From Trachythela sp. YZ-2020 (lineage: Eukaryota; Cnidaria; Anthozoa; Malacalcyonacea; Clavulariidae), in assembly GCA_016169945.1 (NCBI GenBank), contig JADLSH010000216.1, forward strand, positions 340,501 to 404,500: 64,000 nucleotides of DNA. The letters run 5' to 3'. The translations under genes were made by a program, and so were the position numbers. The number at the start of each line of letters is the position of its first letter. Position 1 is the first letter of the stretch. Below are positions 5,409-57,915 of this stretch, one piece after another. Under the pieces are notes generated by a model. It was not told the DNA's origin. It saw nothing but the letters and a program-made list of their open reading frames with translations, and did no database searches.

Positions 5409-6010
5409 TTATGCATAGCAGATGCACAATGCAGTCATAGTGGAAAATATCCCTTGCTGAGCGGTTTTTCGTGGATGGAAGTTTCGAGCGAAACCGATAC
5501 ATATTTCAGCCCAGTTACGAAAAATGCTACTATGCGCCTTAGAGCAGGAATCGAACCTGAGGCCCTGCGAATCCGATGTAGCGCTCTGACCCTGAGCTAC
5601 AGAATCCAGTTGCCAAGTACCAACCACAAGTTCATGCACATATACTCGGGTGATGACGAATATATCCCTTACCCTTCTGTATCTGCACACCACATTGCTG
5701 CAGGTATTTCCACATCGGTAACGAAGGTTGCTACATCGGGTGCAGAAGTTGGGTACATTTACACAGACTCGAACTCTGTATGGAACTCTTTTGGTCTTCC
5801 ACACGAAGCGAGGTCCATAGCCACGGTAGTAACGGATCTTGTATTTGTATCTGACGATTCTGTATCTGGTCACCCAACGGCATACTTTCCTGCTACCACA
5901 TCGGACTCTTTTGCACACACGTCGGTTGCACCATTTGGCTTTGCATACACGTCTGCATCCACAGACCCTGCACCAGAGTCTTCCTCTCCTGTATCGTCTG
6001 CATGCCAAAC
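5409..6010 (-). CDS. exon 4 of copy A: cationic Cys-rich mature domain with long C-terminal tail
   Basis: Starts just after the Lys-Arg site. Motifs in order: RRYRRGRLWC, CGCRRVC, KWCNRRVC, GSRKVCRW, a Cys-free Tyr/Arg segment (RYKYKIRYYRGYGPRF), then RVCVNVPNFCTRCSNL and RCGNTC. After RVRDIF the frame continues for about 80 more residues through tRNA-like sequence (5534-5607) and stops at 5409. Copies B and D stop soon after RVRDIS. The tail may be non-conserved read-on sequence. Confidence 0.7.
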
Positions 6011-9000
6011 CTTAATACAAACTACATGTTAGAAGATGATATGAAGTCAAATCTGATCCAACATCTTCCAACATCAGTCAACGTTACCAAACATGACCCA
6101 ACAATGTTGGACGATGTTGGATGAAAATTTTGATTTAAGTCAAACCTAATCCAACTTCAGGCAAAATTACCAAACATGACCCAACAATGTTGGACGATGT
6201 TGAATGAAAATGTTGATTTGAGTCAAACCTAATCCAACTTCAGTCAAAATTACCGAACATTACCCAACAATATTGGACGATTTGAATGAAAATTTTGAAT
6301 AAAGTCAAACTTGATTCAACTTCAGTCAACATTACCAAACATCCATCAATCAATGATATCAATAAACGATATTGCAAATGCTGGTTTCCACAAAACGCGT
6401 GTACAAACAATTTACAACAAAAATGTTAGCTAAATTTTAACTACAGTAACTGTAAATGAAACTATACTATAAAGAAACTTATACATAAAATATATTAACA
6501 ACTATTAATCTCTCATAACGTGTTTGAGTAGCATTTTTTCTCAAAAGATGACGGAAATTTGCTTTCCCTAATAGCTTTTGGTAGGGCGTTCAATGTTGAT
6601 TTCCCCATCAAACATGAAACTCCTTTTCATATTATTTGTGCGAGGCTGTGGCATTGAGCACAGAGTTATCGAAATATCTCGAAGATTATAATTTGTTACA
6701 TCATTCTTATTGGTGAAAAGATGTGTAAGATATTTAGGACTTATTTTATTCGACACTTTGAACATTAGTTTTGCTTTGGTATTTTTCTTTGCACAGCGAG
6801 TGTCTCGCATCCTGGCGCATTTAATACTACTTTATGATTTACATTGTTGCTCATTCTTGTTATTACTCGACGTTTCGAGCGAACTGGAAGTAAGTAGAAT
6901 ATATTGACGAATGGCCTTCGCTCGAACGTCTAGTATTGTTTATATTTTTCAGCTTGTTAGATCTTTCAATCCATTTCTTGAATAATGTTCATATCTGCCT
7001 ACATTGAAACCCCATATTCTACATGTTAGCACATTGCAGTGTTTTAGTAGGGGACGAAAAGTAAAGAGGGTTCCGGTGAACAATGCTATATTGTTCAAAT
7101 TGTATGTTAATTGAGATTCTTCTCGTTTACCCTATCTTTATCGGTAAATGTTTATCGTTAAGTCTAGTGACTGTGGGATTAGAACTCGGATAAATTATAT
7201 TGGATGACGTTTCTACTGGTGTTTCCACAGCGAGCAAGCTGAAAAATATTTGTCTATCGTTTGTTGGTAATCAAACCACTCAACAGTTTATAAAATGACT
7301 CAACTGAGAGAAAGCATAGGAAGAATTTAGTATACATTAAAGGATAAACCACACGGTCTTGTTCCTCTAGCGTATTTCCCAATCTCTTCCAATGAATACA
7401 TTTTTCAAAAAGAAAAGTCAACAAGAGAAGAAGTGAAAACGTTAAAATATACTGACCTCGTTTCTCGGGCTCGTCATCAGCAACGTCTGTTGTTTCTTCT
7501 AAAGAAAAGAACGTTATTTTCTTGCATTATTCTATACCTCTTAAGGAAATAAACTTTATTTTTACTGAATAACTCTACAGTTTTAAACTGTTCTTCTCAG
7601 TCGAGGTCCACTAAGGGCCATCCTCTGTTCGTGCATTGTCGCTGCAGGAAACAATTTATACTAAACTAACTTTATTTACACTAAAATAACTTTATTTACA
7701 CTATATAGCTCGGCTATTAGCTATATATATTAGATAGCTCCATCGGTTATGCTAGATAGCTCTATCTCGATCCTTAGAGATCCTGTATATTACTGGAGGA
7801 AAACAGATCACCCCAAGAGAACATACGGTGTTTGGTACAGTCCAACTGAAAGCACACGTTTCGCATGCAACTGAGGTAAAATTATAATCAGACAACTAAA
7901 TACTTCAGGAATTAAACCCCGTTCACGGCGGTGAAAGACACGTACACTAACCGCTGTGTCACCATCGCGTTCTTACTTTTTAAAGTGCTACATATTGGTA
8001 AATCTGAATGGTTCGTAATTGTGATTGATAATTAGATTTTGAAATCTACTTTTAGTCAATGTCAAGCAAAGAATGGTGAATGAAAATCGAACCACTAGAG
8101 ATGCAATGCAAGTTAAAGATAGACAAGTTCAGGAAATACCATTTCATATATAATTCTTTGAAAGAGAAATGGTTGTTTACCTTCATCTTCTTCGGTCTCT
8201 TCATCTTCGTTTTCCTCGTCAGCTTCCGTCTCCTCTTCTTCGTCAGCTTGTTCTTCGTCAGCTTGTTCTTCGTCAGCTTGTTCTTCGTCAGCTGCTACGT
8301 CAGCTGTCTCCGGCTGATCTTCCATTTTTGGTGCATCATCGACGGCGGGAGTCTCTTCTTCCGCCCGAGCCACTGTTGGTTAAAGAATAAAGAAAAGTTA
8401 GTTGTTTTAACAAAATCAGACTGCAAATACTTAAAATTCCATGGGTGTATAGTTCTAAAACTGTTAGAACAATCTCTGAATTTGTGCATAAACACCGATG
8501 GTAAAGTAATTAGAAAGCTTACTCGAATCTTTTGGTACTTATACTATTTAAATAGGTATGAAATTATTCTAAGATATTTTTCATTCTGTTCATGCATTAA
8601 GGTTTAGAAAATGAAACCTCGATCAATTGCTCTATCCAATTTGGTTCACAAACGTTTTACGATTTGATATGTTTGCCATGGACGCATAGACGAGTAGAAA
8701 TTTCCGTAAGATCACTGTCCATATGGATGTTCTTTTAATTCGGGACTTATATCTCATCGTTTTCTATCTATTAATGCTAAGCTTTAGCTAGAATACATCG
8801 TTTCACCCTCTGAGGTAAATCGTAGGCCTTTGAAAAACTGTTTACAAGGCAGTTGGAGAATGCCTACAATTTGACTTGCTTGTATGATGAAAAAACTAAA
8901 TTTTGGCTCTACCACAAATTATTTTATGGTGAAAAAATCCTGTAATTCATGTGCTTGGGGTTAAAACACTAGCCTTGAAGTGCAAGCAATCGCACATTTC

Positions 9001-9178
9001 GAGCGAGAAAATCATCTGCAGTAACTGTAAGTCCCTAAGTGTTGGTCTGGTGTGATGCTTTCCCAGCATGCATAGCTCGATCCTCAATCATGCAACTGAG
9101 TGAAATGACAGCTTCGAACTTACCAAAAACGCAGGCCGAAGCCAACAAAAGGAAACACAACAACGCAAAACTCTTCAT
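5409..9178 (-). CDS. secreted Cys/Arg-rich peptide precursor, copy A (4 exons, complete)
   Basis: Exons on the minus strand: 1 at 9124-9178, 2 at 8181-8372, 3 at 7457-7498, 4 at 5409-6010. Exon 1 encodes a signal peptide (MKSFALLCFLLLASACVF) and ends at a GTAAGT donor. Exon 2 (64 codons) is a highly acidic propeptide with repeated ADEEQ. Exon 3 (14 codons) ends in EPEKR, a dibasic proprotein-convertase-type site. Exon 4 carries a strongly basic domain with 15 Cys in its first ~115 residues. All three introns are phase 1, so exons join in frame with AG acceptors and GT donors. The anionic pro-piece probably neutralises the cationic mature peptide until cleavage, as in many host-defence peptide precursors; that role is inferred. 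The family is not recognised, and a structural or venom role is possible. The exon-4 acceptor (ATTAAG|GTTTGGC) was chosen because it alone keeps the Cys-rich frame in all copies. Confidence 0.75.
5534..5607 (-). tRNA. tRNA-like pseudogene embedded at the 3' end of copy A
   Basis: On the minus strand GTAGCTCAGGGTCAGAGCG (A-box/D-arm) is followed about 35 bases later by GGTTCGATTCC (B-box/T-arm). The D-stem GCTC/GAGC and the T-stem pair. The acceptor and anticodon stems are imperfect, so this is a pseudogene or a SINE head and probably not a working tRNA. It is present in units A, B, D and E. Confidence 0.5.
6040..6350. repeat. CCAACAATGTTGG minisatellite in intron 3 of copy A
   Basis: About four units of roughly 78-80 bp, each with the palindrome CCAACAATGTTGG, then GACGATGTTGRATGAAAATTTTGA and GTCAAACCTAATCCAACTTC. 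Immediately intronic of exon 4. The array exists in all units with different copy numbers. Confidence 0.85.
6540..6830 (-). mobile_element. LINE 3'-end remnant in intron 3 (unit A)
   Basis: The minus frame at 6810-6568 reads MFKVSNKISPKYLTHLF and later MPQPRTNNMKRSF. This resembles the C-terminal tail of CR1/L2-type LINE reverse transcriptases (pattern K-LN--AP-YL--LF ... P-PRT---KRSF). It is broken by frameshifts and has no RT core, so it is an old 5'-truncated copy. Related remnants sit at the same place in the other units. Confidence 0.55.
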
Positions 9179-9252
9179 TGTTCTTCTGCTTTTCTTCAAA
9201 CTGTTTCTTGCTTGAAGTTCCAACACCAAGTGACGAACTGATAAAACTTGCG

Positions 9253-9262
9253 CCCTTTTATA
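9253..9262 (-). promoter_or_regulatory. TATA box of copy A
   Basis: TATAAAAGGG on the minus strand about 75-85 bases upstream of the exon-1 ATG. A TATCAGTT initiator-like word lies roughly 22-25 bases downstream of it. Both are kept in copies D and E and, slightly altered, in C. Confidence 0.7.
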
Positions 9263-9379
9263 CTCTGTCTCCGGTTGATTTATGCAGAGTTCGCGATGTC
9301 GTTGCCATGGTTGCAATATTACTGCGTATTCGTCAGCAGCATTGTAAGCCAATATGCTGAGAACATGTATTCTTAATTT

Positions 9380-10198: not shown

Positions 10199-10276
10199 CA
10201 AGGATTAGGGTTAGGATTAAGGGTTAGGACTTAGGATTAGGGTTGTGGTTAGGATTAGTATTAGAGTTAGGATTAA
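10199..10276 (+). repeat. degenerate TTAGGG telomere-like tract (unit A)
   Basis: Reads as GGATTAGGGTTAGGATTAAG and similar: TTAGGG units mixed with TTAGGA. TTAGGG is the usual metazoan telomere repeat, so this may be an interstitial telomeric relic. The same tract recurs in D and E. Confidence 0.7.
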
Positions 10277-13073: not shown

Positions 13074-13500
13074 TCCTGGGGGGGTGGGGGGTACGAACTA
13101 GTCCCCGGACTGAAAGGACCCTCTATTGCTTATAGAATGTGCAGTGATAAAAAAAATTTAGATATGACCCCCACTACAATAACCCTCCCTCCTCAAACAT
13201 GTTGTCCGATTGTCCTCAAGGTCTAGGCCACAATCTCTCGTGACCGCACTTTGGAAAATCAAAAACGAAAACACGTATTATGCAACAAAAGTTTATTTCT
13301 AAAACACAAAATGAACACAACTCTGTACATCTTTCTACATGTATAACGCTAGTAAATGAAATGTTTTCCAATCGTAATAATCCGTTTTATAACCAGGTAT
13401 CCTTTAACGAAGTTAGGTAGTTCATCCGTGGTATGGGAAGCACTATATGAAAGAAAACAAAAATTGTTAAATTCAAAGCTATCTGGACAATAGACCAATT
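13074..13500. repeat. unit-boundary segment (A/B junction)
   Basis: Contains TAGTCCCCGGACTGAAAGG, TTATGCAACAAAAGTTTATT and TAACGCTAGTAAATGAAATG, matching 4,900, 51,600 and 63,640. Confidence 0.8.
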
Positions 13501-14876: not shown

Positions 14877-15212
14877 ATATATCCCTTACCCTTCTATATC
14901 TGCACACATTGCTGCAGGTATTTCCACATCGGTAACGAAGGTTGCTACATCGGGTGCAGAAGTTGGGTACATTTACACAGACTCGAACTCTGTATGGAAC
15001 TCTTTTTGTCTTCCACACGAAGCGAGGTCCATAAGGGATCTTGTATTTGTATTTGACGATTCTATATCTCGTCACCCAACGGCATACTTTCCTGCTACCA
15101 CATCGGACTCTTTTGCACACACGTCGGTTGCACCATTTGGCTGTGCATACACGTCTGCATCCACAGGCCTTGCACCAGAGTTTTCCTCTCCTGTATCGTC
15201 TGCATGCCAAAC
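14851..15212 (-). CDS. exon 4 of copy B: cationic Cys-rich mature domain
   Basis: Intact frame with all 15 cysteines of the core (motifs RRYRRGKLWC, CGCRRVC, KWCNRRVC, NVPNFCTRC). The Tyr/Arg linker is shorter than in A (KYKYKIPYGPRF) and the protein ends with VNILNLV because of the adjacent insertion. The ATTAAG|GTTTGGC acceptor is kept. Its own upstream exons are damaged, so it probably depends on copy C's exons to be expressed. Confidence 0.65.
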
Positions 15213-18200
15213 CTTAATACAAACTACATGTTACAATATGATATGAAGTCAAATTTGATCCAACATCTTGCAACATCAGTCAACGTTACCAAACATGACC
15301 CAACAATGTTGGACGATGTTGGATGAAAATTTTGAATTTCGTCAAACCTAATCCAACTTATGTCAAAATTACCAAACATGAAGCAACAATGTTGGATGAT
15401 TTGAATAAAAATTTTGAACTAAGTCAAACTTGATTCAACATCAGTCAACATTACCGTACATGACCCAACAGTGTTGGACGATGTTGAATGAAAATTTTGA
15501 TTTAAGTCAAACCTAATCCAACTTCAGTCAACATAGAAAGCATGACCCAACAATGTTGGACGATGTTGAATGAAAATTTTGATTTAAATCAAACCTAATC
15601 CAACTTCAGTCAACATGCAAATCAAGATCCAACAATGTTGGACGATGTTTAATGAAAATTTTGAAATCTAACTCAAAGCTGATTCAACTTCAGTCAACAC
15701 TACCAAACATGACCCAACAATGTTGGATGATGTTGAATGAACATTTTGAATTAAGTCAAACTTGATTCAACATCAGTCAACATTACCGAACATGATCCAA
15801 CAATGTTGGACGATGTTGAATGAACATTTTGATTTAAGTCAACATCAGTCAACATTTCCAAACATCCATCAATCAATGGTATCAATAAAACTAAATTGCA
15901 AATGCTGGTTTCCACAAAGGGCGTGTACAAACAATTTACTACTAAAATGTTCGCTAAATTTAAACTGCAGTAACTGTAAACGAAACCATACTATAAAAAA
16001 TTATACATAAAATATATTAACAACTACTAATCTCTCTTAACGTGTTTGAGTAGCATTTTTTCTCAAAAGATGACGGAAATTTGCTTTCCCTAGTAGCTCT
16101 TGGTTGGGCGTTCCATGTTGATGTCCCCATCAAACATAAAACTCCTTTTCATATTATTTGTGCGAGGCTGTGGTATTGAGCGCAGAGTTATCGAAATATC
16201 TCGTAGTATAATTTGTTACATTCTTATTGGTGAAAAGATGTGTAAGAGATTTAGGATCTATCTTATTCAACACTTTGAACATTAGTTTTGCTTTGGTATT
16301 TTTCTTTCCACAGCGAGTGTCTCCCATCCTAGCGCATTTAATACTACTTCATGATTTACATTGTTGCACATTCTTGTTATTATTACTCGACGTTTCTACC
16401 GAACTGGAAGTGAGTAGAATATATTAACATCCAGAAGGCGAATGGCCTTCGCTCGAACGTTTATATTTTTTATATTTTTCAGCTTGTTAGATCTTTCAAT
16501 CCATTTCTTGAATAATGTTCATCTCTGCCTACATTGAAACCCCATATTCTACATGTTAGCACATTGCAGTGTTTTAGTAGGGGACGAAAAGGACTCCGGT
16601 GAACAATGCTATATTGTTCAAATTGTATGTTAATTGAGATTCTTCTCGTTTCCTCTATCTTTATCGGTAAATGTTTATCGTTAAGTCTAGTGACTGTGGG
16701 ATTAGAACTCGGATAAATTATATTGGATGACGTTTCTCCTGGTGTTTCCACACCGAGCAAGCTGAAAAAATATTTGTCTGTCGTTTGTTGGTGATCAAAC
16801 CACTCAACAGTTTATACAATGACTCAACTCATGAGAGAAAGCATAGGAAGAATTTAGTATACAATAAAGGATAACCACACTTGTTTCTCTAGCGTATTTC
16901 CCAATCTCTTCCAATGAATATATTTAATATTCAAAAAGAAAAGTCAACAAGAAAAGAAGTGAAAACGATTGAAATATACTGACCTCGTTTCTCGGGCTCG
17001 TCATCAGCAACGTCTGTGGTTTCTTCTAAAGAAACGAACGTTATTTTTTTTCATTATTCTATACCTCTCATTATCCTATACCTCATTCTTTTATACCTAT
17101 TTTTACTGAATAACTCTACAGTCTTAAACTGTTCTTCTCAGTCGAGGTCCACTAAGGGCCATCCCCTGTTCGTGCATTGTCGCTGCAGGAAACAATTTAG
17201 ACTAAACTAACTTTATTTACACTAAAATAACTTTCTTTACACTATATAGCTCTATTAGTTATACATATTAGATAGCTCCGTCGGTTATGCTGGATAGCTC
17301 TGTCTCGATCGTTAGAGATCCTGTATATTACTGGAGGAAACCAGATCACCCCAAGAGAACATACGGTGCTTGGTCAAGTACAACTGAATGCACACGTTTC
17401 CCATGCAACTGAGGTAAAATTGTAATTAGACAACTAAATACTTCAGGAATTAAACCCCGTTCACGGTGGTGAAAGACACGTACACTAACCGTTGTGTCAC
17501 TATCGCGTTCTTACGTTTTAAAGTGCGGCATATCGGTAAATCTGAATGGTTCGTAATTGTGATTGATAATTAGATTTTGAAATCTACTTTTAGTCCATGT
17601 CATGCAAAGAATGGGAATAAAAATCGAACCACTGGAGATGCAACGCAAGTTAAAGATAGACAAGTTCAGGAAAAACAATTTCAGGTATAAATATTTGAAA
17701 GAGAAATGGTTGTTTACCTTCATCTTCTTCGGTCTCTTCATCTTCGTCTTCCTCATCAGCTTCCGTCTCTTCTTCGTCAGCTTGCTCTTCGTCAGCTTGT
17801 TCTTCGTCAGCTTCATCTTCGTCATCTTGTTCTTCGTCAGCTGCTACGTCAGCTGTCTCCGGCTGATCTTCCTTTTTGGGGCATCATCGACGGCGGGAGT
17901 CTCTTCTTCCGCGCGAGCCACTGTTTGTTAACGAATAAAGAAAAGTTAGTGGTTTTAACAAAATGAGACTGCAACTACTTAAATTCCCCCGAGTGTACAT
18001 TTCTAAAAATGTTAGAACAATCACTGAATTTTTGCATAAACACCGATGGTAAAGTAATTAGACAGCTTACTCGAATCTTTTGGTACTCACTATTTAAATA
18101 GGTATGAAATTATTCTAAGATCTTTTTCAGTCTGTTCATGCATTAAGGTTTAGAAAATGAAACCTCAATTGCTCTATCCCATTTGGTTCACAAACGTTTT

Positions 18201-21161
18201 ATGATTTGATATGTTTCCCATGATTTGAAAATGAATTAAACCCAGCTGTAAGCAGTAGAAATTTCGGTAAGATTACTGTCCATATGGTTGTTCTTAAGTT
18301 CTTATAATTCGGGACTTATATCTCATCGTTTTCTATCTATTAATGCTAAGCTTTAGCTAAAATACTTCGTTTCACCCTCTGAGGTAAATCGAAGGCCTTT
18401 GAAAAAAACTGTTTACAATGCAATCGCACATTTTCGAGCAAGAAAATCATCTGCAGTAACTGTAAGTCGCTACAACATTGACGATTCACGCACTTGGAAG
18501 ACTGTCTGTGTCAAATGCAACACAAGCAGAAGTCTCATCCGACCATTAACTTGCTGTTACTAAAGGGGCGTTTACACATTGCGATTTTGTCCTGTGCAGT
18601 TCGGGTTCTGGTGTATGAAATTCATATGACGCCAATTCCAGAAATCTGTATTGAGCTGAAATTTAAATGCACTATTTGACGCGTGCCTACTCGATCGCAT
18701 ACACCGAAATGCGAGTCGTACTCGGCGGATCGCGGTGTGTAAACGTACCTTAAATACCCTTATTTCTGTTTTCTATATTTAAATTTATAGTTTGTAAAGG
18801 GCCCACTGTAATTGGTGTTAAGCTGTTGTGGTGTCCCAGCTTCTTTTTTTATGTATATTGTTTGTCTTAGTGCAATTAATGTATGATGTTTGAAGCGAAG
18901 CACAATAAATAAATAAATAAAAAAGTGTTTTATTTATAAATAAATAAAAAACCTAATCCAACTTCAGTCAAACTTACCAAACATAAAGCAACAATGTTGG
19001 ATGATGTTGAATGAAAATTTTGAACTAAGTCAAACTTGATTCAACATCAGTCAACATTACCGTACATAACCCAACAGTGTTGGACGATGTTGAATGAAAA
19101 TTTTGATTTAATTTAATCAACATCAGTCAACATTACCAAACATCCATCAATCGATGATATCAATAAAACTATATTGCAAATGCTGGTTTCCACAAAGCGC
19201 GTGTACAAACAATTTACAACAAAAATGTTAGCTAAATTTCAACTAACTGTAAATGAAACTATACTATAAAAAAACTTATACATAAAATATATTAACAACT
19301 ATTAATCTCTCATAACGTGTTTGAGTAGCATTTTTTCTCAAAAGATGACGGAAATTTGCTTTCCCTAATAGCTTTTGACATGGCGTTCCATGTTGATGTC
19401 CCCATCAAACATGAAACTCCTTTTCATATTATTTGTGCGAGGCTGTGGCAAGAATTTAGTATACATTAAATGATAAACCACACTTGTTCCTCTAGCGTAT
19501 ATCTCAATCTCTTCCAATGAATACATTTTTCAAAAAGAAAAGTCAACAAGAGAAGAAGTGAAAACGATTGAAATATACTGACCTCGTTTCTCGGGCTCGG
19601 CATCAGCAACGTCTGTTGTTTCTTCTGAAGAAAAGAACGTTATTTTCTTTCATTATTCTATACCTCTTCAGGAAATAAACTTTATTTTTTACTGAATAAC
19701 TACAGTTTTAAACTATTCTTCTCAGTCGAGGTCCACTAAGGGCCATCCCCTGTTCGTGCATTGTCGCTGCAGGAAACAACTTTATTTACACTAAACTAAC
19801 TTTATTTACACTATATAGCTCTATTAGTTATATTCATTAGATAGCTCCATGGGTTATGCTAGATAGCTCTGTCTCGATCCTTAGAGATCCTGTATATTAC
19901 TGGAGGAAACCAGATCACCCCAAGAGAACATACGGTGTTTGGTAAAGTACAAATTATAATCAGACAACTAAATACTTCAGGAATTAAACTGTTCACGGTG
20001 GTGAAAGACACGTACACTAACTGCTGTGTCACTATCGCGTTCTTACGTTTTAAAGTGCGGCATATCGGTAAATCTGAATTGTTCATAATTCTGATTGATA
20101 ATTAGATTTTGAAATCTACTTTTAGTCCATGTCATGCAAAGAATGGTGAATGAAAATCGAACCACTGGAGATGCAATGCAAGTTCAAGATAGACAATTTC
20201 AGGCAAAACAATTTCAGGTATAATTATTTGAAAGAGAAATGGTTGTTTACCTTCATCTTCTTCGGTCTCTTCATCTTCGTCTTCCTCGTCAGCTTCCGTC
20301 TCTTCTTCGTCAGCTTGCTCTTCGTCAGCTTGTTCTTCGTCAGCTTGTTCTTCGTCATCTTGTTCTTCGTCAGCTGCTACGTCAGCTGTCTCCGACTGAT
20401 CTTCCATTTTTGGGGCATCATCGACGGCGGGGGTCTCTTCTTCCGCGCGAGCCACTGTTTGTTAACGAATAAAGAAAAGTTAGTGGTTTTAACAAAATGA
20501 GACTGCAACTACTTAAAATCCCCGGGTGTACATTTCTAAAACTGTTAGAACAATCACTGAATTTTTGCATAAACACCGATGGTAAAGTAATTAGACAGCT
20601 TACTCGAATCTTTTGGTACTTACTATTTAAATAGGTATGAAATTATTTTAAGATCTTTTTCAGTCTGTTCATGCATTAAGGTTTAGAAAATGAAACCTCA
20701 ATTACTCTATCCCATTTGGTTCACAAACGTTTTATGATTTGATATGTTTCCCATGGACGCAGTTTGAAAAGGAATTAAACCACAGCTGTAAGCAGTAGAA
20801 ATTTCGGTAAGATTACTGTCCATATGGTTGTTCTTAAGTTCTTATAATTCGGGACTTATATCTCATCGTTTTCAATCTATTAATGCTAAGCTTTAGCTAA
20901 AATACTTCGTTTCACCCTCTGAGGTAAATCGAAGGCCTTTGAAAAAAACTGTTTACAAGGCAATCGCACATTTTCGAGCAAGAAAATCATCTGCAGTAAC
21001 TGTAAGTCGCAGTAACTGTAAGTGTTGGTCTGGTGTGATGCTTTCCCAGCATACATAGCTCGATCCTCAATCATGCAACTGAGTGAAATGACAGCTTAGA
21101 ACTTACCAAAAACGCAGGCCGAAGCCAACAAAAGGAAACACAACAACGCAAAACTCTTCAT
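14851..21161 (-). CDS. possible composite B+C gene (promoter and exons 1-3 from C, exon 4 from B)
   Basis: Reading along the minus strand: C exon 1 at 21107-21161, C exon 2 at 20251-20454, C exon 3 at 19583-19624, B exon 2 at 17718-17920 (frameshifted), B exon 3 at 16984-17025, B exon 4 at 14851-15212. C has a TATA box, signal peptide, acidic exon and Lys-Arg site but no Cys-rich exon. B has the Cys-rich exon but no promoter or signal. Every exon is phase 1, so C exon 3 can join B exon 4 (or B exon 3 then exon 4) in frame if B exon 2 is skipped. Including B exon 2 would shift the frame. Whether it is spliced like this is inference; two separate pseudogenes is the alternative. Confidence 0.45.
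15235..15900. repeat. CCAACAATGTTGG minisatellite in intron 3 (unit B, longest array)
   Basis: About eight units of ~78 bp with CCAACARTGTTGGACGATGTTG, separated by GTCAAACCTAATCCAACTTC or GTCAAACTTGATTCAACATC. It is twice the length of the arrays in A, D and E. Confidence 0.85.
16050..16330 (-). mobile_element. LINE 3'-end remnant in intron 3 (unit B)
   Basis: Same remnant as at 6,540-6,830, with GGAGTTTTATGTTTGATGGG and GTGTTGAATAAGATAGATCC still visible on the minus strand. Multiple indels; no intact frame. Confidence 0.5.
16984..17920 (-). pseudogene. exons 2 and 3 of copy B, exon 2 frameshifted, exon 1 missing
   Basis: Exon 2 at 17718-17920 begins correctly (VARAEEETPAVDDAP) but at about 17,872 one base is missing relative to copies A, C, D and E (CCTTTTTGG instead of CCATTTTTGG), so the frame shifts and soon meets TAG. 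Exon 3 at 16984-17025 is intact, including the EKR site and both splice sites. Exon 1 is absent: similarity to the other units ends near 18,475 just before where it should be. Confidence 0.8.
18476..18950. mobile_element. nested insertions at the B/C junction: MITE plus SINE-like tail
   Basis: 18563-18751 has inverted ends AGGGGCGTTTACAC / GTGTAAACGTACCT next to TAA on each side, a PIF/Harbinger-like MITE pattern. 18,795-18,930 contains AAAGGGCCCACTGTAATTGG and a GAAGC...AATAAATAAATAAA tail similar to the 3' half of the SINEs at 48,736 and 60,793. This block replaces exon 1 of copy B and exon 4 of copy C. Confidence 0.6.
18951..19140. repeat. truncated CCAACAATGTTGG minisatellite (unit C)
   Basis: Two units and a remnant; its left edge coincides with the start of unit C, where exon 4 should be but is not. 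Sequence is closest to 22,876-23,060 of unit D. Confidence 0.8.
20251..21161 (-). CDS. exons 1 and 2 of copy C (signal peptide and acidic propeptide)
   Basis: Exon 1 at 21107-21161 is identical in peptide to copy A (MKSFALLCFLLLASACVF). Exon 2 at 20251-20454 has 68 codons, in frame, with four repeat units including one ADEEQ-to-DDEEQ change. Exon 3 follows at 19583-19624 with an AEPEKR site. Donors and acceptors are all GT/AG. No Cys-rich exon lies between exon 3 and the insertion at 18,950. Confidence 0.7.
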
Positions 21162-22008: not shown

Positions 22009-22082
22009 GGCCCTTCGAGCAGGAATAGAACCTACGGCCCTGCGAATCCGGTGCAGCGCTCTGACCCTGAGCTACAAAGTCC
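22009..22082 (-). tRNA. tRNA-like pseudogene (unit D, best preserved)
   Basis: Minus strand: GTAGCTCAGGGTCAGAGCG, then CTGCACCGGATTCGCAG (anticodon-arm-like, 4 of 5 pairs) and GTAGGTTCTATTCCTGC (T-arm, 5 pairs with one G-T). Acceptor pairing is partial and position 33 is not T, so a working tRNA is unlikely. Confidence 0.5.
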
Positions 22083-22371: not shown

Positions 22372-22736
22372 CTAAACTAAATTTAGGATATTTACGGATA
22401 TGTCCCTTACCCTTCTGTATCTGCACACCGCATTGCTGCAGGTATTTCCACATCGGTAACGAAGGTTGCTACATCGGGTGCAGAACTTGGGTACATTTAC
22501 ACAGACTCGAACTCTGTATGGAACTCTTTTGGTCTTCCACACGAAGCGAGGTCCATAAGGGATCTTGTATTTGTATTTGACGATTCTATATCTGGTCACC
22601 CAACGGCATACTTTCCTGCTACCACATCGGACTCTTTTGCACACACGTCGGTTGCACCATTTGGCTTTGCATACACGTCTGCATCCACAGGCCTTGCACC
22701 AGAGTCTTCCTCTCCTGTATCGTTTGCATGTCAAAC
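22372..22736 (-). CDS. exon 4 of copy D: cationic Cys-rich mature domain
   Basis: 15 cysteines at conserved positions; about a third of residues are Arg or Lys. Acceptor ATTAAG|GTTTGAC. The upstream GCAGACG acceptor alternative seen in A is absent here (GCAAACG), which supports the ATTAAG site in all copies. Confidence 0.7.
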
Positions 22737-25085
22737 CTTAATACAAACTACATGTTAGAAGATGATATGAAGTCAAATCTGATCCAACATCTTCCAACAT
22801 CAGTCAACGTTACCAAACATGACCCAACAATGTTGGACGATGTTGGATGAAAATTTTGATTTTGGTCAAACCTAATCCAACTTCAGTCAAAATTACCAAA
22901 CATGAAGCAACAATGTTGGATGATGTTGAATGAAAATTTTGAACTAAGTCAAACTTGATTCAACATCAGTCAACATTACCGTACATAACCCAACAGTGTT
23001 GGACGATGTTGAATGAAAATTTTGATTTAATTTAATCAACATCAGTCAACATTACCAAACATCCATCAATCGATGATATCAATAAAACTATATTGCAAAT
23101 GCTGGTTTCCACAAAGCGCGTGTACAAACAATTTACAACAAAAATGTTAAAAAAACTTATACATAAAATATATTAACAACTGTTAATCTCTCATAACGTG
23201 TTTGAGTAGCATTTTTTCTCAAAAGATGACGGAAATTTGCTTTCCCTAATAGCTTTTGATATGGCGTTCCATGTTGATGTCCCCATCAAACATGAAACTC
23301 CTTTTCATATTATTTGTGCGAGGCTGTGGCAAGAATTTAGCATACATTAAATGATAAACCACACTTGTTCCTCTAGCGTATATCTCAATCTCTTCCAATG
23401 AATACATTTTTCAAAAAGAAAAGTCAACAAGAGAAGAAGTGAAAACGATTAAAATATACTGACCTCGTTTCTCGGGCTCGTCATCAGCAACGTCTGTGGT
23501 TTCTTCTAAAGAAACGAGCGTTATTTTCTTTCATTATTCTATACCTCTTCAGGAAATAAACTTTATTTTTACTGAATAACTCTACAGTTTTAAACTGTTC
23601 TTCTCAGTCGATGTCCACTAAGGGCCATCCCCTGTTCGTGCATTGTCGCTGCAGGAAACAACTTAGACTAAACTAACTTTATTTACACTAAACTAACTTT
23701 ATTTACACTATATAGCTCTATTAGTTATATATATTAGATAGCTCCATGGGTTATGCTAGATAGCTCTATCTCGATCCTTAGAGATCCTGTATATTACTGG
23801 AGGAAACCAGATCACCCCAAGAGAACATACGGTGTTTGGTAAAGTACAAATTATAATCAGACAACTAAATACTTCAGGAATTAAACCCCGTTCACGGTGG
23901 TGAAAGACACGTACACCAACCGCTGTGTCACTATCGCGTTCTTACGTTTTAAAGTGCGGCATATCGGTAAATCTGAATGGTTCATAATTGTGATTGATAA
24001 TTAGATTTTGAAATCTGCTTTTAGTTAATGTCATGCAAAGAATGGTGAATGAAAATCGAACCACTGGAGATGCAATGCAAGTTAAAGATAGACAATTTCA
24101 GGAAAAACAATTTCAGGTATAATTCTTTGAAAGAGAAATGGTTGTTTACCTTCATCTTCTTCGGTCTCTTCATCTTGGTTTTCCTCGTCAGCTTCCGTCT
24201 CTTCTTCGTCAGCTTGTTCTTCGTCAGCTGTCTCTAGTTGATCTTCCATTTTTGGGGCATCATCGACGGCGGGGGTCTCTTCTTCCGCGCGAGCCACTGT
24301 TGGTTAAAGAATAAAGAAAAGGTTTTAGCAAAATCAGACTGCAACTACTTAAAATCCCCCTTGTGTATAGTTCTAAAATTGTTCGAACAATCTCTGAATT
24401 TGTGCATAAACACCGATGGTAAATCTTTTATTGGTACTTACTATTTAAATAGGTATGAAATTATTCTAGGATATTTTTCATTCTGTTCATGCGTTAAGGT
24501 TTAGAAAATGAAACCTCAATTGCTCTATCCCATTTGGTTCACAAACATTTTACGATTTGATATGTTTCCCATGGTCGCAGTTTGAAAAGGAATTAAACCA
24601 CAGCTGTAAGCAGTAGAAATTTCAGTAAGATCACTGTCCATATGGATGTTCCTTTAATTCGGGACCTATATATCATCGTTTTCTATCTATTAATGTAAGC
24701 TTTAGCTAAAATACTTCGTTTCACCCTCTGAGGTAAATCTAAGGCCTTTGAAAAAACTGTTTACAAGGCAGTTGGAGAATGCCTACAATTTGACTTGCTT
24801 GTATGATGAAAAAACTAAATTTTGGCTCTACCACAAATGATTTGATGGTGAAAAAATCCTATATTTCATGTGCTTGGGGTTAGAAAACTAGCCTTGAAGT
24901 GCAAGCAATCGCACATTTTCGAGCAAGAAAATCATCTGCAGTAAAGTGTTGGTCTGGTGTGATGCTTTCCCAGCATGCATAGCTCGATCCTCAATCATGC
25001 AACTGAGTGAAATCACAGCTTCGAACTTACCAAAAACGCAGGCCGAAGCCAACAAAAGGAAACACAACAACGCAAAACTCTTCAT
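22372..25085 (-). CDS. secreted Cys/Arg-rich peptide precursor, copy D (4 exons, complete)
   Basis: Exons: 1 at 25031-25085, 2 at 24150-24296, 3 at 23464-23505, 4 at 22372-22736. The signal peptide is identical to that of copy A. Exon 2 is the shortest acidic exon (49 codons): the DVAADEEQ part and several repeat units are missing, yet the reading frame is kept. Exon 3 ends EPEKR. Exon 4 encodes about 121 residues after the dibasic site and stops at VNILNLV. TATA box, splice sites and all phase-1 junctions are intact, so this looks functional. The mature peptide differs from A by substitutions in the first loop (CKRYRRGRLWC, CKACGC) and by the shorter PYGPRF linker. Function unknown; a cationic host-defence or venom-type peptide is inferred from layout only. 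Confidence 0.75.
22755..23060. repeat. CCAACAATGTTGG minisatellite in intron 3 (unit D)
   Basis: About four units of the same ~78-bp repeat as in the other introns. Confidence 0.8.
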
Positions 25086-26165: not shown

Positions 26166-26288
26166 TCAGTTTGTATTAAAATTCAGGTCGTTAATATGGA
26201 AATTAAGCCAAGGAAACGGTGATTTTTTGGATTAGACATACATGCACCTTACTTTAGATGGGAGGTATAATCCCATCAGCATCGGGAG

Positions 26289-27186
26289 CCCTGATCTTCG
26301 GCGACCGCGGATCAGGGTTTTTTACACGTGTCATGTATACCGATATTGACTCGTACCATACAATCTACATACAATGTTGTAGCTATGATTGCACACCAAT
26401 GATTTATCTAACTAAAGCCCTGACCTTCGGCGACCACGGATCAGGTTTTTTACACGTGTCATGTATACCGATATTGACTCGTACCATACAATCTACATAC
26501 AATGTTGTAGCTATGATTGCACACCAATGATTTATCTAACTAAAGCCCTGACCTTTGGCGACCCTGGATAAGGTTTTTTACATGTGTCATATATACCGAT
26601 ATTGACTCGTACCATACAATCTATATACAATGTTGTAGCTATGATTGCACACCAATGATTTATCTAACTAAAGCCCTGTCCTTCGGCGACCCTGGATCAG
26701 GTTTTTTACATGTGTCATGTATACCGATATTGACTCGTACCATACAATCTACATACAATGTTGTAGCTATGATTGCACACCAATGATTTATCTAACTAAA
26801 GCCCTGACCTTCGGCGACCCTGGATCAGGTTTTTTACATGTGTCATGTATATCGATATTGACTCGTACCATACAATCTATATACAATGTTGTAGCTATGA
26901 TTGCACACCAATGATTTATCTAACTAAAGCCCTGACCTTCGGCGACCCTGGATCAGGTTTTTTACATGTGTCATGTATACCGATATTGACTCGTACCATA
27001 CAATCTACATACAATGTTGTAGCTATGATTGCACACCAATGATTTATCTAACTAAAGCCCTGACCTTCGGCGACCCTGGATAAGGTTTTTTACATGTGTC
27101 ATGTATACCGATATTGACTCGTGCCATACAATCTACATACAATGTTGTAGCTATGATTGCACACCAATGATTTATCTAACTAACGC
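26289..27186 (+). repeat. 128-bp satellite, 7 copies (unit D)
   Basis: Unit starts near CCCTGACCTTCGGCGACC, continues GGATCAGGTTTTTTACA, ATACCGATATTGACTCG, ACAATGTTGTAGCTATG and ends ATTTATCTAACTAAAG. Starts at about 26,289, 26,418, 26,546, 26,674, 26,802, 26,930 and 27,058. Copies differ by few substitutions. Unit A has only the first ~10 bases; unit E has three copies. The ORFs across it are by-products. Confidence 0.95.
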
Positions 27187-27765
27187 CCTGGTCAAGCGAG
27201 ATGAGAGTTGATGAGAGTTGGCAAGCGAGAGTTTGCATGAGAGTTTCATTCGTAACTTGCCAAATTATTTAAAGGGCTTATGCAGCGAAAATTCGGTTCG
27301 AGTGAAACTCTCTTATTAAAGAGAACTTTTGAAGTTATGAAGATTGACGTTTGGAGCTTTTCCATATCTCACTTCGTTCTTGAGATATTAAGATGTGTTT
27401 GATATGTAAATAACATCACTGTTACATCACACTGCATAATGAATTGTTGGAAAATCACGAATACCTCTGAGATTATTTAACCAATCGCCTTTAAACTGTC
27501 ATTTGTTTCTGCCTATCGCAGGACACCCTCCTTCCAGTACATTAGTTAAAAAAGGCCCTGTAAGAAGGCGATTCAGCTCGTTTTATCTCAGTATCTTCAA
27601 GTCAGCAACAAAGTGAGCGTATTAGCGAGACGATCCCACCCACCCGGGAAAATTCGTGGACTTATCACCGCAGGAAGTTCGTGTTTGACTCACTTTCCTT
27701 CCGCTGACTAACGTTTATCCGATACCTAAATCAACTGAGCTAGAATACGAGTGTTGGGAAATAGA
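27187..27765. other. spacer after the satellite, no gene
   Basis: Contains a short direct repeat (GATGAGAGTT / GCAAGCGAGAGTTTGCATGAGAGTT). The last ~230 bases (GGCGATTCAGCTCGTTTTATC onward) are shared with 59,527-59,700. No coding sequence recognised. Confidence 0.4.
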
Positions 27766-36509: not shown

Positions 36510-38231
36510 TCAAGTGAATTTGGTGCGAACAAGGTGTTCCTTAAGATTTTTGTGACGCTGATATGCCATGACTGGTGAGTTTGGCCATATGTCTGAAAGT
36601 GTGTGGTCGTTTTCAATATAATGCCAGTGTTGTTTGAGAATGTGTGATAGTGGTGCGAGGTCAGGGTGATATGGGATGACAAATGGTAGGGTGCGTGTGT
36701 TGTTTGTGGGTGTGGTATTTGTGAGTAGTTGTGATTGGGTGTATGTTGAGGCTTTTTCGATGTGAGGTAGGATATCCTTGTCTTTATAGCCTCTCCCTAT
36801 TAGGGCGACTCTGAGTTTCTGTGCTTTCTCATGAAACTCTTTGTCATCTGTGATTATCCTCCTGTATCTGAGCATCTGGCTGTATATTAAGCCTTTTTTG
36901 CATGTATTTGGATGATGTGAGGAGTGGTGTAAGAGTGGCATGCAGTCTGTGGGTTTAATGTAGAGTGTTGTGTTGAGTGTGTTTTGGGAGGTGGTGTAAA
37001 CTGTGGTGTCGAGGAAATTCACACTTGTTTTTGAGAGTGTGACTTCAAATTTGATTGTGGGGTGGAATGAGTTGAGATGATTGATGAATGTTTGGAGTGA
37101 ATCCTCTCCATGTGTCCAGACTAAGAATATATCATCTATAAATCTTTTCCACAGGAGGGGTATGAGGTGATCGGGTGCAGATGAGAGAAGTGAGTCCTCT
37201 AATGCGCCCATGAAAATGTTTGCAAAAGAGGGTGCCATTTTGGTGCCCATGGCAGTGCCATGTTTCTGTAAGTAAAGTTGATCTTTGAATGTGAAGTAGT
37301 TTTCTTTGAGTATGTGTTCAAGAAATTGGTGTATGACTTTGCGAAGTGGCCATAGATGTCCGTGTTTGGTGTCCAGTGCTTCCAATGCAGCACGGATCCC
37401 TTCATCGTGCGGGATGTTGGTGTATAATGATTTGACATCGATGGTGGCGAGAACGGTGTTGGTGGTAATGGTGTTGGGATATCGAATATGGTTTGTAGGA
37501 AATGGTTGGTGTCCTTGATGTAAGATGGGAGTGAATAGCAGAGTGGTTTTGAGATGTGTGTCTATGAATGAGGAGAGCCTATCTGTTGGTGAGTCGCAAC
37601 CCGATATGATCGGTCGTCCTGGATTATTTGGTTTGTGTATTTTTGGTAGTAAGTAAAATATGGGTACGCGTGGTGGTGAGGGTGGTAGTAGGTACTTGAG
37701 TGTTTGGTGGTCAATGTCTCCATATTTAAAGAGATCTTTGACATAATTTGTGATGGTATTGGTTTGTGCTGTGATGGCTGTGTTTGGTTGGGCCTGTATT
37801 TGTGCATAATATTTTTTGTCATTGAGTTGGGAGACTGCCTCTTTTTCATAGTCAGTTGTTGACCAAATGACCACTGCACCTCCCTTGTCTGCTGGTTTAA
37901 TGACATATGTTTGATTGTGGATGTTGTGGTTTGCAAGAAATTCCAGTTCCTCTTTATTTAGGTTGGAATTGTGTTGTTCATGCGAGTTGTGTTTGAATGT
38001 ATGCTGGATGGATTCTGCAACAGAGACTATGAATGAAATTAAGTTTGGATTGTCCGGAGTAGGCGGTGTCCACAGACTTTTGGTCTTGAATGGATTTGGA
38101 TGATCATTGGAAAAATTTCTAAAGTGGTAATGTATGTACATGGATCTTCTGAATTGTTTGAAAGAATTGACAATTGTTTTGATGTGAGTGTTGGCTGGTG
38201 TTGGTACGAATTTGAGGCCCTTTGAAAGCAT
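36510..38231 (-). CDS. Penelope-like reverse transcriptase, unit 2 (573 aa, open)
   Basis: Telomerase-related RT of the Penelope class; it would copy the element RNA into DNA at a nick. Motifs: DKGGAVVIW at residues 115-123, LPKIHKPNNPGRPIISG at 195-211, TIDVKSLYTN with the first catalytic Asp at 263-272, GTAMGTKMAPSFAN at 325-338, FIDDIFLVW with the catalytic DD at 364-372. The ORF ends at LKEHLVRTKFT, just where other Penelope proteins continue into a Cys motif and a GIY-YIG endonuclease; neither is found downstream. Residues about 227-257 are read in a shifted frame relative to units 1 and 3, because of an extra T near 37,548 and a missing G near 37,461 that cancel. So the enzyme may be inactive despite being open. 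The true start may lie upstream of this ATG. Confidence 0.85.
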   Translation of the reverse strand: MLSKGLKFVPTPANTHIKTIVNSFKQFRRSMYIHYHFRNFSNDHPNPFKTKSLWTPPTPDNPNLISFIVSVAESIQHTFKHNSHEQHNSNLNKEELEFLANHNIHNQTYVIKPADKGGAVVIWSTTDYEKEAVSQLNDKKYYAQIQAQPNTAITAQTNTITNYVKDLFKYGDIDHQTLKYLLPPSPPRVPIFYLLPKIHKPNNPGRPIISGCDSPTDRLSSFIDTHLKTTLLFTPILHQGHQPFPTNHIRYPNTITTNTVLATIDVKSLYTNIPHDEGIRAALEALDTKHGHLWPLRKVIHQFLEHILKENYFTFKDQLYLQKHGTAMGTKMAPSFANIFMGALEDSLLSSAPDHLIPLLWKRFIDDIFLVWTHGEDSLQTFINHLNSFHPTIKFEVTLSKTSVNFLDTTVYTTSQNTLNTTLYIKPTDCMPLLHHSSHHPNTCKKGLIYSQMLRYRRIITDDKEFHEKAQKLRVALIGRGYKDKDILPHIEKASTYTQSQLLTNTTPTNNTRTLPFVIPYHPDLAPLSHILKQHWHYIENDHTLSDIWPNSPVMAYQRHKNLKEHLVRTKFT

Positions 38232-51594: not shown

Positions 51595-52010
51595 TTCCTG
51601 GGGGGTGGGGGGTACTAGCTAGTCTCCGGACTGACGGGACCCTCTATTGCTTATAGAATGTGTAGTGATACAAAATCAGAAAATTAGATATGACCCCCAC
51701 TACAATAACCCCCCCCCCCTCAAACATGTTATACGATTGTCCTCAAGCTCTATACCACAATCTCTCGTGACCGCACTTTAATTTGGAAAATCAAAAACGA
51801 AAACACATATTATGCAACAAAAGTTTATTTCTAAAACACAAAATGAACACAAATTTGTACATCATTCTACATGTATAACGCTAGTAAATGAAATATTTTC
51901 CAATCGTAATAATCCGTTTTGTAACCAGGCAACCTTTAACGAAGTTAGATAGTTCATCCGCGGTATGGGAAGCACTATATATAAAAAAACAAAAATTGTT
52001 TAATTCAAAG
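51595..52010. repeat. unit-boundary segment (D/E junction)
   Basis: TAGTCTCCGGACTGACGGG, TTATGCAACAAAAGTTTATT, TAACGCTAGTAAATGAAAT, as at the other junctions. Confidence 0.8.
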
Positions 52011-52120
52011 CTATCTAGACAATAGACCAATTCATAATGTCAATGCACATCCAAATGACGCATTCTGCGTCGGGATAAAATTGCAGTTGAATCATAACAT
52101 GTACCCAAGACCACAATTAA

Positions 52121-52390: not shown

Positions 52391-52594
52391 TTAACTATGC
52401 TAAGACTGGAGGTTTTAAAATATGAATATCAAAGTATTCAATTGTTCAATCATTCTTTGTGTTTAACAAACAACCACAATACAACTGCAATGTGATTTGA
52501 ATATGTAAAACATTGCTCAAAGAACAATTAGCTTTCGCCCGATTGACTAATCTGGCATTACACAAAACTATTCCCTTATGTGCAACTTTCTATA

Positions 52595-53757: not shown

Positions 53758-54175
53758 TATTTTGCTTTACACAGAGGACAAGGTATGTTGGTACGAAAAG
53801 GCATTGAATATATGATTGACCAGTTGTTTATTTTGATATATGCATATTCATAGTCTTCCAGACTTAGCTACATGTTATGATTCAACTGCAATTTTATCCC
53901 GACGCAGAACGTGTCATTTGGATGCACAATCGACATTACGATTTGGTCTATACGCGTGCTTTCCTACCAATCACCAGAAACTGTAAGAACCTCTTCTAAC
54001 ATGTCACCAAACCACAGTAGAGTTGTGGTGGTCACACTAATATGGCCGCTTCATTTATGAATAGCAAATGTACAATGCAGTATTAGTGAAATCTATCCCT
54101 TGTTGAAGGGTTTTTCTTGGATGGAGGTTTCGAGCGAAACCGATACGTATTTCACAGCGGTCGCAAAAAATGCTA

Positions 54176-54654
54176 CTATAGGCCCTTCGAGCAGGAATAG
54201 AACCTACGGCCCTGCGAATCCGGTGCAGCGCTCTGACCCTGAACTACAAAGTCCAGTTGCCAAGTGCCAACCACAAGTTCATGCATATATACTCGAGTGA
54301 TGACGAATATATCCCTTACCCTTCTGTATCCGCACACATTGCTGCACGTATTTCCACATCGGTAACGAAGGTTGCTACATCGGGTGCAGAAGTTGGGTAC
54401 ATTTACACAGACTCGAACTCTGTATGGAACTCTTTTGGTCTTCCACACGAAGCGAGGTCCATAGCCACGGTAGTAACGGATCTTGTATTTGTATCTGACG
54501 ATTCTGTATCTGGTCACCCAACGGCATACTTTCCTGCTACCACATCGGACTCTTTTGCACACACGTCGGTTGCACCATTTGGCTTTGCATACACGTCTGC
54601 ATCCACAGACCCTGCACCAGAGTCTTCCTCTCCTGTATCGTTTGCATGCCCAAC
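54176..54654 (-). CDS. exon 4 of copy E: cationic Cys-rich mature domain with A-type tail
   Basis: Core cysteines conserved; VCGYRRVRDIF replaces CRYRRVRDIF. The tail continues VITRVYMHELVVGTWQLD, nearly the same as in A, then diverges. The acceptor is ATTAAG|GTTGGGC. Confidence 0.7.
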
Positions 54655-57600
54655 CTTAATACAAACTACATGTTAGAACATAATATGAAGTCAAATCTGA
54701 TCCAACATCTTGTAACATCAGTCAACGTTGCCAAACACGACCCAACAATATTGAACGATGTTAGATGAAAATTTTGATTTATGTCCAACCTAATCCAACT
54801 TCAGTCAAAATTACGAAACATGACCCAACAGTGTTGAACGATGTTTAATGAAAATTTTGAATAAAGTCAAACTTGATTCAACTTCAGTCAACACAACCGG
54901 ACATGACACAACAATGTTGGACGATGTTGGATGAAAATTTTGAATAAAGTCAAACCGGATCCAACATCTTCAATTACCAAACATCCATCAATCAATGATA
55001 TCAATAAACAATATTGCAAATGCTGGTTTCCACAAAGGGCGTGTACAAACAATTTACAACTAAAATGTTAGCTAAATTTTATACTAACTGTAAACGAAAC
55101 TATACTATAAGAAAGTTATATTTAAAATATATTAACAACTAGCAATTTTTTTCTCAAAAGATGACGGAGATTTGCTTTCCCTAATGTCTTTTGGTAAGGC
55201 GTTCCATGTTGATGTCCCCAACACATGAAACTCCTTTTCATATTATTTGTGCGACACTGTGGTATTGAGCACAGAGTTATCGAAAGATTATAATTTGTTA
55301 CATCCTTCTTATTGGTGAAAAGATATGTAAGAGATTTAGGACCTATCTTATTCAACATTTTGAACATTAGTTTTGCTTTCGTATTTTTCTTTGCACATCG
55401 AATGTCTCCCGTCCTAGCGCATTTACTACTACTTCATGATTTACATTGTTGCTCATTCTTGTTATTACTCGAGCTGCTCTGACCCATGAAACATTAACCA
55501 ACAGCGTTGGATATTGTCGGACCAACATGTTGCCCTGGGAATGAACGGGACTTTACTGTATTCAAATTAAGAAGTTAGGTGAAGGATACAACTACATGAA
55601 ATATATAAACAAAAACGTCGACGTTTCGAGCGAACTGGAAGTAAGTAGAATATATTAACATCCAGACGACGAAAGGCCTTCGCTCGAGCGAAGGACCTAT
55701 TTTATATTTTTCAGGTGGTTAGATCCTTCAACCAATTTCTTGAATATTTTTCATCGCTGTCTACACTGAAACCCCGCATTCTAGTTGGCATATTGCAGTG
55801 TTTTAGTAGGCGACGAAAAGTAAAAAGGGCTCCGGTGAACAATGCTATATTGTTCAAATTGTATGTTAATTGAGAAGAAGCCTATGTGCTCGTTTCCTCT
55901 ATCTTTATCGGTAAATCTTTATCGTTAAGTCTAGTGACTGTGGGATTAGAACTCGGGTAAATTATATTGGATGACGTTTCTCCTGGTGTTTCCACACCGA
56001 GCAAGCTGAAAAAATATTTGTCTATGGTTTGTTGGTAATCAAACCACTCAACGGTTTATAAAATGACTCAACTGAGGGAAAGCATAGGAAGAATTTAGTA
56101 TACATTAAAGGATAAACCACACGGTCTTGTTCCTCTAGCGCATATCCCAATCTCTTCCAATGAATACATTTTTCAAAAATAAAAGTCAACAAGAGAAGAA
56201 GTGAAAACGATTAAAATATACTGACCTCGTTTCTCGGGCTCGTCATCAGCAACATCTGTGGTTTCTTCTAAACAAAGGAACGTTATTTTCTTTCATTATT
56301 CTATACCTCTTCAGGAAATAAACTTTATTTTTACTGAATAACTCTACAGTTTTAAACTGTTCTTCTCAGTCGAGGTCCACCAAGGGCCATCCCCTATTCG
56401 TTTACACTAAACTAACTTTATTTACACTATATAGCTCTATCAGTTATATGGATTAGATAGCTCCATCGGTTATGCTAGATAGCTCTATCTCGATCCTTAG
56501 AGGCCCAGTATATTACTGGAGGAAACCGGAGCACCCGAAGAAAACATACGATGTTTGGTAACGTCTAACTGAAAGACACGTTTCGCATGCAACTGAGGTA
56601 AAATTATAATCAGACAACTAAATACTTCAGGTATCGAACCCCGTTCACAGTGGTGAAAGACATGTATCGAGTTCTGTCACCATCGCGTTCTTACTTTTTA
56701 AAGTGCTACATATCGGTAAATCTGAATGGTCCATAATTGTGATTGATAATTAGATTTTGAAATCTACTTTTAGTCAATGTCATGCAAAGAATGGTGAATG
56801 AAAATCGAACCACTGGAGATGCAATGGAAGTTAAAGATAGACAAGTTCAGGAAAAACAATTTCAGGTATAATTCTTTGAAAGAGAAATGGTTGTTTACCT
56901 TCATCTTCTTCGGTCTCTTCATCTTCGTCTTCCTCGTCAGCTTCCGTCTCTTCTTCGTCAGCTTGTTCTTCGTCAGCTTGTTCTTCGTCAGCTTGTTCTT
57001 CGTCAGCTGCTACGTCAGCTGTCTCCGGCTGATCTTCCATTTTTGGGGCATCATCGACGGCGGGAGTCTCTTCTTCCGCGCGAGCCACTGTTTGTTAACG
57101 AATAAAGAAAAGTTAGTGGTTTTAACAAAATGAGACTGCAACTACTTAAAATCCCCCGAGTGTACATTTCTAAAAATGTTAGAACAATCACTGATTTTTT
57201 GCATAAACACCGATGGTAAAGTAATTAGATAGCTTACTCGAATATTTTGGTACTTACTATTTAAATAGGTATGAAATTATTCTAAGATCTTTTTCAGTCT
57301 GTTCATGCATTAAGGTTTAGAAAATGAAACCTCAATTACTCTATCCCATTTGGTTCACAAACGTTTTATGATTTGATATGTTTCCCATGGACGCAGTTTG
57401 AAAAGGAATTAAACCACAGCTGCAAGGAGTAGAAATTTCAGTAAGATTACTGTCCATATGGATGTTCTTTTAATTCGGGACTTATATCTCATCGTTTTCT
57501 ATCTATTAATGCTAAGCTTTAGCTAAAATACTTCGTTTCACCCTCTGAGGTAAATCGAAGGCCTTTGAAAAAACTGTTTACAAGGCAGTTGGAGAATGCC

Positions 57601-57915
57601 TACAATTTGACTTGCTTGTATGATGAAAAAACTAAATTTTGGCTCTACCACAAATGATTTTATGGTGAAAAAATCCTATATTTCATGTGCTTGGGGTTAA
57701 AACACTAGCCTTGAAGTGCAAGCAATCGCACATTTTCGAGCAAGAAAATCATCTGCAGTAACTGTAAGTCGCTAAGTGTTGGTCTGGTGTGATGCTTTCC
57801 CAGCATGCATAGCTCGATCCTCAATCATGCAACTGAGTGAAATGACGGCTTCGAACTTACCAAAAACGCAGGCCGAAGCCAACAACAGGAAACACAACAA
57901 CGCAAAACTCTTCAT
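54176..57915 (-). CDS. secreted Cys/Arg-rich peptide precursor, copy E (4 exons, complete)
   Basis: Exons: 1 at 57861-57915, 2 at 56899-57087, 3 at 56226-56267, 4 at 54176-54654. The signal peptide matches copy A. Exon 2 (63 codons) has three ADEEQ-type repeats. Exon 3 gives EPEKR. Exon 4 begins with a Trp substitution right after the dibasic site (GWACKRYRRG) and keeps the 15 cysteines and the longer RYYRGYGPRF linker of copy A. All junctions are phase 1 with GT/AG. As in A, no MITE interrupts the 3' end, and the frame runs on through tRNA-like sequence to 54176. Likely functional; role inferred as for copy A. Confidence 0.75.
54181..54254 (-). tRNA. tRNA-like pseudogene (unit E)
   Basis: Same element as in A, B and D; the D-arm has a substitution (GTAGTTCAGGGTCAGAGCG) that weakens its stem. 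Confidence 0.45.
54680..54985. repeat. CCAACAATGTTGG minisatellite in intron 3 (unit E)
   Basis: About four units, the most diverged array (CCAACAATATTGAACG, CAACAGTGTTGAACG). Confidence 0.75.
55122..55400 (-). mobile_element. LINE 3'-end remnant in intron 3 (unit E)
   Basis: Best-preserved frame of this remnant: MFKMLNKIGPKSLTYLF, CSIPQCRTNNMKRSF and KTLGKANLRHLLRKKL. CR1/L2-like C-terminal tail. Confidence 0.55.

Follow-up and report, generated by a model that had tools for sequence, protein, structure and literature searches.

A tandem octocoral gene family encoding secreted precursors with an acidic pro-piece and a cysteine-rich cationic mature part, tentatively assigned to host defence

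The octocoral Trachythela sp. YZ-2020 carries a tandem gene family whose precursors combine a signal peptide, a strongly acidic pro-piece and an extremely cationic, Cys-rich mature part. As a whole, this family is best explained as encoding a charge-masked cationic effector, most likely one of host defence, a reading that we favour tentatively and with close to even confidence. The defence role, which we infer, is favoured by the charge masking together with the diversification of the mature part.

In order to count copies, the exons of gene A were mapped across the window (the whole 64,000-nucleotide stretch of DNA analysed here, C198:340501-404500 of a 578-Mb genome) and the adjoining sequence. 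Inside the window, exon 1 is found four times, the exon 2/3 pair five times and exon 4 four times; so the window contains four genes (A, B, D and E), all on the minus strand. The initial annotation had listed five related loci, but its fifth is an internal duplication of gene B, because the additional exon 2-3 pair has no exon 1 of its own. Gene A consists of the signal-peptide exon 1 (9124..9178, with TATAAAA ~84 bp upstream), exon 2 with the acidic pro-piece (8181..8372), exon 3 with the pro-piece end and its putative EPEKR cleavage site (7457..7498), exon 4 with the cationic mature part and 15 Cys (5673..6010) and exon 5 (5242..5262), which encodes CFPHYG-stop including a 16th Cys and matches the ends of homologues P0003, P0006 and P0008. 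Gene B (21161-13422) carries exons 2 and 3 in tandem duplicate: exon 1 (21107..21161) is followed by exon 2a, whose acidic frame is open (20251..20454), exon 3a (19583..19624), exon 2b, an acidic duplicate with its frame shifted by a one-base deletion (17718..17920), exon 3b (16984..17025), exon 4 (14890..15212) and exon 5 (13422..13442, CFPYHG-stop, AATAAA downstream). Gene D is made up of exon 1 (25031..25085), a shortened acidic exon 2 (24150..24296), exon 3 (23464..23505) and exon 4 (22411..22736), and gene E of exon 1 (57861..57915), acidic exon 2 (56899..57087), exon 3 (56226..56267), exon 4 (54320..54654) and exon 5 (51954..51974, CFPYRG-stop, AATAAA downstream). At the right end of the window lie the final bases of exon 5 of gene F (63991..64000, minus strand), whose other exons are located beyond it. 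Altogether the array comprises seven genes, with F, G and H to the right of the window up to ~C198:436 kb, and an eighth gene, Z, is dispersed on contig C185. A genome-wide search with exon 2 returned at least nine places, all within these eight genes.

The exon layout described by the initial annotation, i.e. a signal exon, an acidic exon, an exon ending in EKR and a basic Cys exon, is present on the minus strand, and the proposed splice sites and TATA boxes are borne out as well. The exons are bounded by GT-AG junctions and would be joined in phase 1, and TATAAAA lies 81-84 bp upstream of the ATG in five of the eight genes, with TATATAA in B, F and H; a simple pattern search of the eight promoters found no NF-kB-like site. 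Besides the gene count, the 3' end and the number of cysteines had to be revised. The stretch 5409-5672, formerly read as the tail of exon 4, is intron and lies beyond a GTAAGG donor that is present in all eight copies. The C-termini of database homologues, CSPVYRG and CHPYYG, extend past the originally proposed exon 4, the donor sitting just before. In six genes, a 21-nt exon 5 (TGC-TTC-CCA-...-TGA) follows a TATAG acceptor, and gene Z has a longer, basic exon 5 (CYPRYPSRHPHRYPHHYG). The mature part of these seven genes contains 16 Cys, and the 15 conserved cysteines counted before apply to gene D, the exception, for which no exon 5 was found between its exon 4 and the start of gene B, and which may be incomplete. 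AATAAA is found within ~150 nt after exon 5 in four of the six exon-5-bearing genes of the array, and in gene Z too. The models amount to seven complete in-frame five-exon precursors of 213-238 residues and a near-complete eighth from gene D.

Several other features accompany these genes. A tandem repeat with an 83-base unit, in 3-7 copies, occupies intron 3 shortly upstream of exon 4 in all four genes of the window (6067-6342, 15271-15842, 22793-23062 and 54714-54984). Exon 4 is overlapped on the plus strand by antisense ORFs in gene A (5454-6032, 192 aa) and gene E (54257-54676, 139 aa), which are probably a by-product of codon make-up. Downstream of exon 4 of gene D there is a tRNA-Ser call (22009-22080, minus strand), and a similar tRNA-like stretch is recognizable by eye downstream of exon 4 of gene A (~5530-5610, minus strand); both possibly represent a tRNA-derived SINE. 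A 128-base satellite lies ~1.2 kb ahead of the ATG of gene D (26287-27190, 7 copies) and of gene E (59131-59505, 3 copies). Between these two genes, a G-rich, strongly skewed block (28000-48200, GC skew ~0.35-0.55) contains about four copies spaced 5.3-6.0 kb apart and an ORF (36510-38231, minus strand) that matches the RVT_1 reverse transcriptase family (E = 3.4e-15); we take this block to be, possibly, a series of tandem Penelope-like retroelements. Near the left end, about 156 copies of the 6-base unit ATAGTC (1726-2678) directly precede a 324-aa ORF (2677-3651, plus strand), which matches a Pox_A32-type packaging ATPase (E = 1.8e-7), shows a weak zinc finger and is perhaps part of a Polinton-like element.

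Charges, cysteines and motifs were tallied for 11 precursors, i.e. the eight genes reported here and three database proteins. All 11 pro-pieces (59-92 residues) close with EPEKR, and their charge ranges from -30 to -45; the mature part (109-124 residues) has a net charge of +32 to +44. Mature parts lack Asp and Glu altogether in 10 of the 11 sequences, the eleventh, from Dendronephthya gigantea, having a single Glu; their pI is 10.3-11.0 and their mass 13.3-15.9 kDa (10 sequences). In sum, the charges of the two parts roughly cancel, yet they show no correlation (r = -0.10, nine sequences), so that masking is plausible but is not shown by co-evolution. Defensins and eosinophil major basic protein likewise have an anionic pro-piece that offsets a cytotoxic cationic product, a likeness that may be taken as an analogy and implies no sequence relation. 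At the other end of the precursor, nine of the ten exon-5-bearing sequences (seven here, three from databases) terminate in Gly, a possible amidation signal, and gene H terminates in Ala.

Exon 4 is constrained in its Cys frame, the property on which the initial annotation had staked its reading. In an alignment of ten mature proteins (gene D, having no exon 5, was left out), all 16 Cys columns are invariant versus 21 of the 88 other ungapped columns (Fisher p = 4.9e-9). Twelve of the 16 Cys mirror each other across a predicted hairpin; this mirror spacing is seen in all 11 rows and in 14 of 16 homologues, and is reached equally by 0.2-2.1% of random Cys arrangements. Furthermore, insertions and deletions either are compensated between the strands (a 2+2 deletion in D. 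gigantea) or lie at the tip (4 and 8 residues). Two AlphaFold models agree on one hairpin with strands of 39-40 residues in which block means of pLDDT are 78-96; their pTM is low (0.34 and 0.37), both runs used largely the same alignment, and they were judged without coordinates or Cys-Cys distances. The hairpin fold and its disulfide pairing are best treated as predicted. In the numbering of the gene A mature part, the nested pairs would be C19-C109, C23-C104, C28-C100, C33-C93, C38-C90 and C44-C83.

The nearest structural counterparts would be beta-hairpin antimicrobial peptides, of which protegrin, arenicin, thanatin and theta-defensin are given as peptides of 16-21 residues closed by one to three disulfides, and hepcidins as having four, in the available portion of one account (PMC13001179). 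The same portion describes cationic, single antiparallel hairpins with cross-strand disulfides, a trait that the octocoral protein is predicted to share, and, in some families, release of the peptide from a longer precursor (PMC13001179). As excerpted there, these are short polypeptides, and the octocoral mature part, although cationic, is far larger with its 109-124 residues and 16 Cys (PMC13001179). We consider it possible, if short of probable, that the family represents a new octocoral-restricted architecture: a free-standing hairpin with ~40 residues per strand, six nested disulfides, a charge near +40 and a nearly charge-neutral pro-form, in which the tip and faces diversify, the ladder stays fixed and the strands shorten in step. 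Such a protein might function like an oversized beta-hairpin antimicrobial or be a pore- or fibre-forming rod.

Searches of ~5.8 billion proteins yielded 16 homologues (best E = 6e-37), and the widest search added none. The three species-named proteins among them, one from Dendronephthya gigantea and two from Paramuricea clavata, are all predicted with the full precursor layout, and the remaining 13 of 16 resemble exon 4 read on into introns. The D. gigantea protein is labelled as a RING1a-like ligase, perhaps owing to its acidic stretch, and both P. clavata proteins are labelled hypothetical. Against Pfam and NCBIfam, no model scored above its cut-off, and PDB sequences gave no match. SCRiPs are much smaller peptides with 8 Cys. 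By the defining features compared, the mature parts do not seem to belong to a known group, galaxins failing on the di-Cys motif and beta-hairpin antimicrobials on length. None of the titles and abstract openings found in the open-licence literature names the family. As the initial annotation had surmised in proposing an undescribed cnidarian secreted family that joins an anionic pro-piece to a cationic Cys-rich product, this octocoral family, with its layout in three proteins of two further octocorals, looks undescribed.

Codon models, run with our own script on the eight paralogues with gene conversion unmodelled and gene D exon 5 entered as gaps, separate the two parts of the precursor. For the mature part, a one-ratio omega of 1.28 fits no better than omega = 1 (lnL -867.33 versus -867.70), and a model placing ~47% of sites at omega ~4 beats the nearly-neutral model (2dlnL = 17.85, p = 1.3e-4). 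This signal survives removal of gene D (p = 5e-4) or gene H (p = 5e-6) and is no longer significant once gene Z is removed (p = 0.076). In the pro-piece, omega is ~0.3 and a high-omega class is absent. It appears that the mature part diversifies around fixed Cys while the pro-piece is conserved, the signal depending largely on gene Z.

These data suggest how a charge-masked effector might operate. The signal peptide would route the precursor into the secretory pathway, where the pro-piece (-30 to -45) would offset the mature part (+32 to +44) while the precursor is made and stored; unmasked, the effector could harm or stick to the cell that produces it. A protease for dibasic sites would then cut after Glu-Lys-Arg and free a protein of ~13-16 kDa, which would fold into a single very long antiparallel beta-hairpin with about six nested cross-strand disulfides, the four leftover Cys forming two further bonds near the hairpin ends. 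The Gly that ends most copies could be used for amidation. The unmasked protein would bind polyanionic surfaces, and these would most likely be the membranes or cell walls of microbes. In favour of such targets are the very high charge of the protein, its predicted disulfide-laddered hairpin and its diversification.

Second to microbial defence we place a nematocyst role, because the propart ends in Lys-Arg, even though it far exceeds the 9-17 residues quoted for toxins. In that case, which we hold to be rather unlikely, the protein would be a venom or capsule-matrix component, and its acidic Lys-Arg propart would be the usual signal of cnidarian nematocyst precursors. Like the sea anemone toxins treated in passages of one review (PMC3447340), the octocoral precursors have a signal peptide, a negative propart ending in Lys-Arg (all 11 sequences) and a Cys-rich mature part that appears to evolve faster, and the same passages describe those toxins as having a conserved leader and a fast mature part. 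A tandem array with a fast mature part would also suit venom genes. The octocoral propart, however, measures 59-92 residues versus the 9-17 quoted, and according to these passages such proparts also occur on toxins absent from nematocysts (PMC3447340). Moreover, the mature part matches no Pfam family above cut-off, and the main-text passages of a paper on Eunicella singularis venom describe no such protein (PMC11896702).

We also regard as unlikely, and rank behind the nematocyst, a skeletal or extracellular matrix role, in which the protein would be basic and cross-linked, would reside in sclerites, axis or mesoglea and would use the acidic piece for secretion or mineral control. Scleritin is a secreted protein of 135 residues whose signal peptide accounts for 20, and it is not known to carry an acidic pro-piece. 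According to passages of two papers, 24 matrix proteins of Corallium rubrum are found only in octocorals and nine of these are strongly alkaline, with scleritin as the most abundant (PMC7853314) and with a band of ~15 kDa (PMC9581515); compared by description only, the mature part resembles these proteins in being octocoral-restricted, basic and ~15 kDa in size, traits of which the last two are not specific to scleritin. Amgalaxin-like 1 of Acropora millepora, as presented in sections of its description, likewise joins a signal peptide and an acidic domain (pI 3.21) to a strongly basic Cys-rich region (pI 12.39), but it has 660 residues and the tandem di-Cys repeats by which galaxins are defined (PMC2726143), whereas the octocoral proteins have ~215 residues and no Cys-Cys motif in any of the 11 mature parts. 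Furthermore, one would less expect a matrix protein to combine a fast mature part with a conserved pro-piece. With its extreme charge and essentially no acidic residues, the mature part would bind any polyanion and might act as a mucus, egg-coat or DNA- or polysaccharide-condensing protein without defence function, but nothing specific points there, and we hold this very improbable. Least probable of all is a decaying or untranslated array: exon 5 is missing from gene D and one of the duplicated exons of gene B is frameshifted, but seven of the eight genes have complete in-frame models and splice sites, the Cys columns are fixed, and homologues are retained in other octocorals.

In summary, our study supplies gene models for proteins that are now recorded as "hypothetical" or as a RING1a ligase. 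Should they turn out to be skeletal or venomous, they would form a new family of basic skeletal or venom proteins. If the model of a charge-masked defence effector holds, the family would represent a new way of folding and masking a very cationic protein and a clear case of indel compensation across a disulfide ladder, with natural variants at hand for testing, and octocorals would gain a gene-encoded family of defence proteins.
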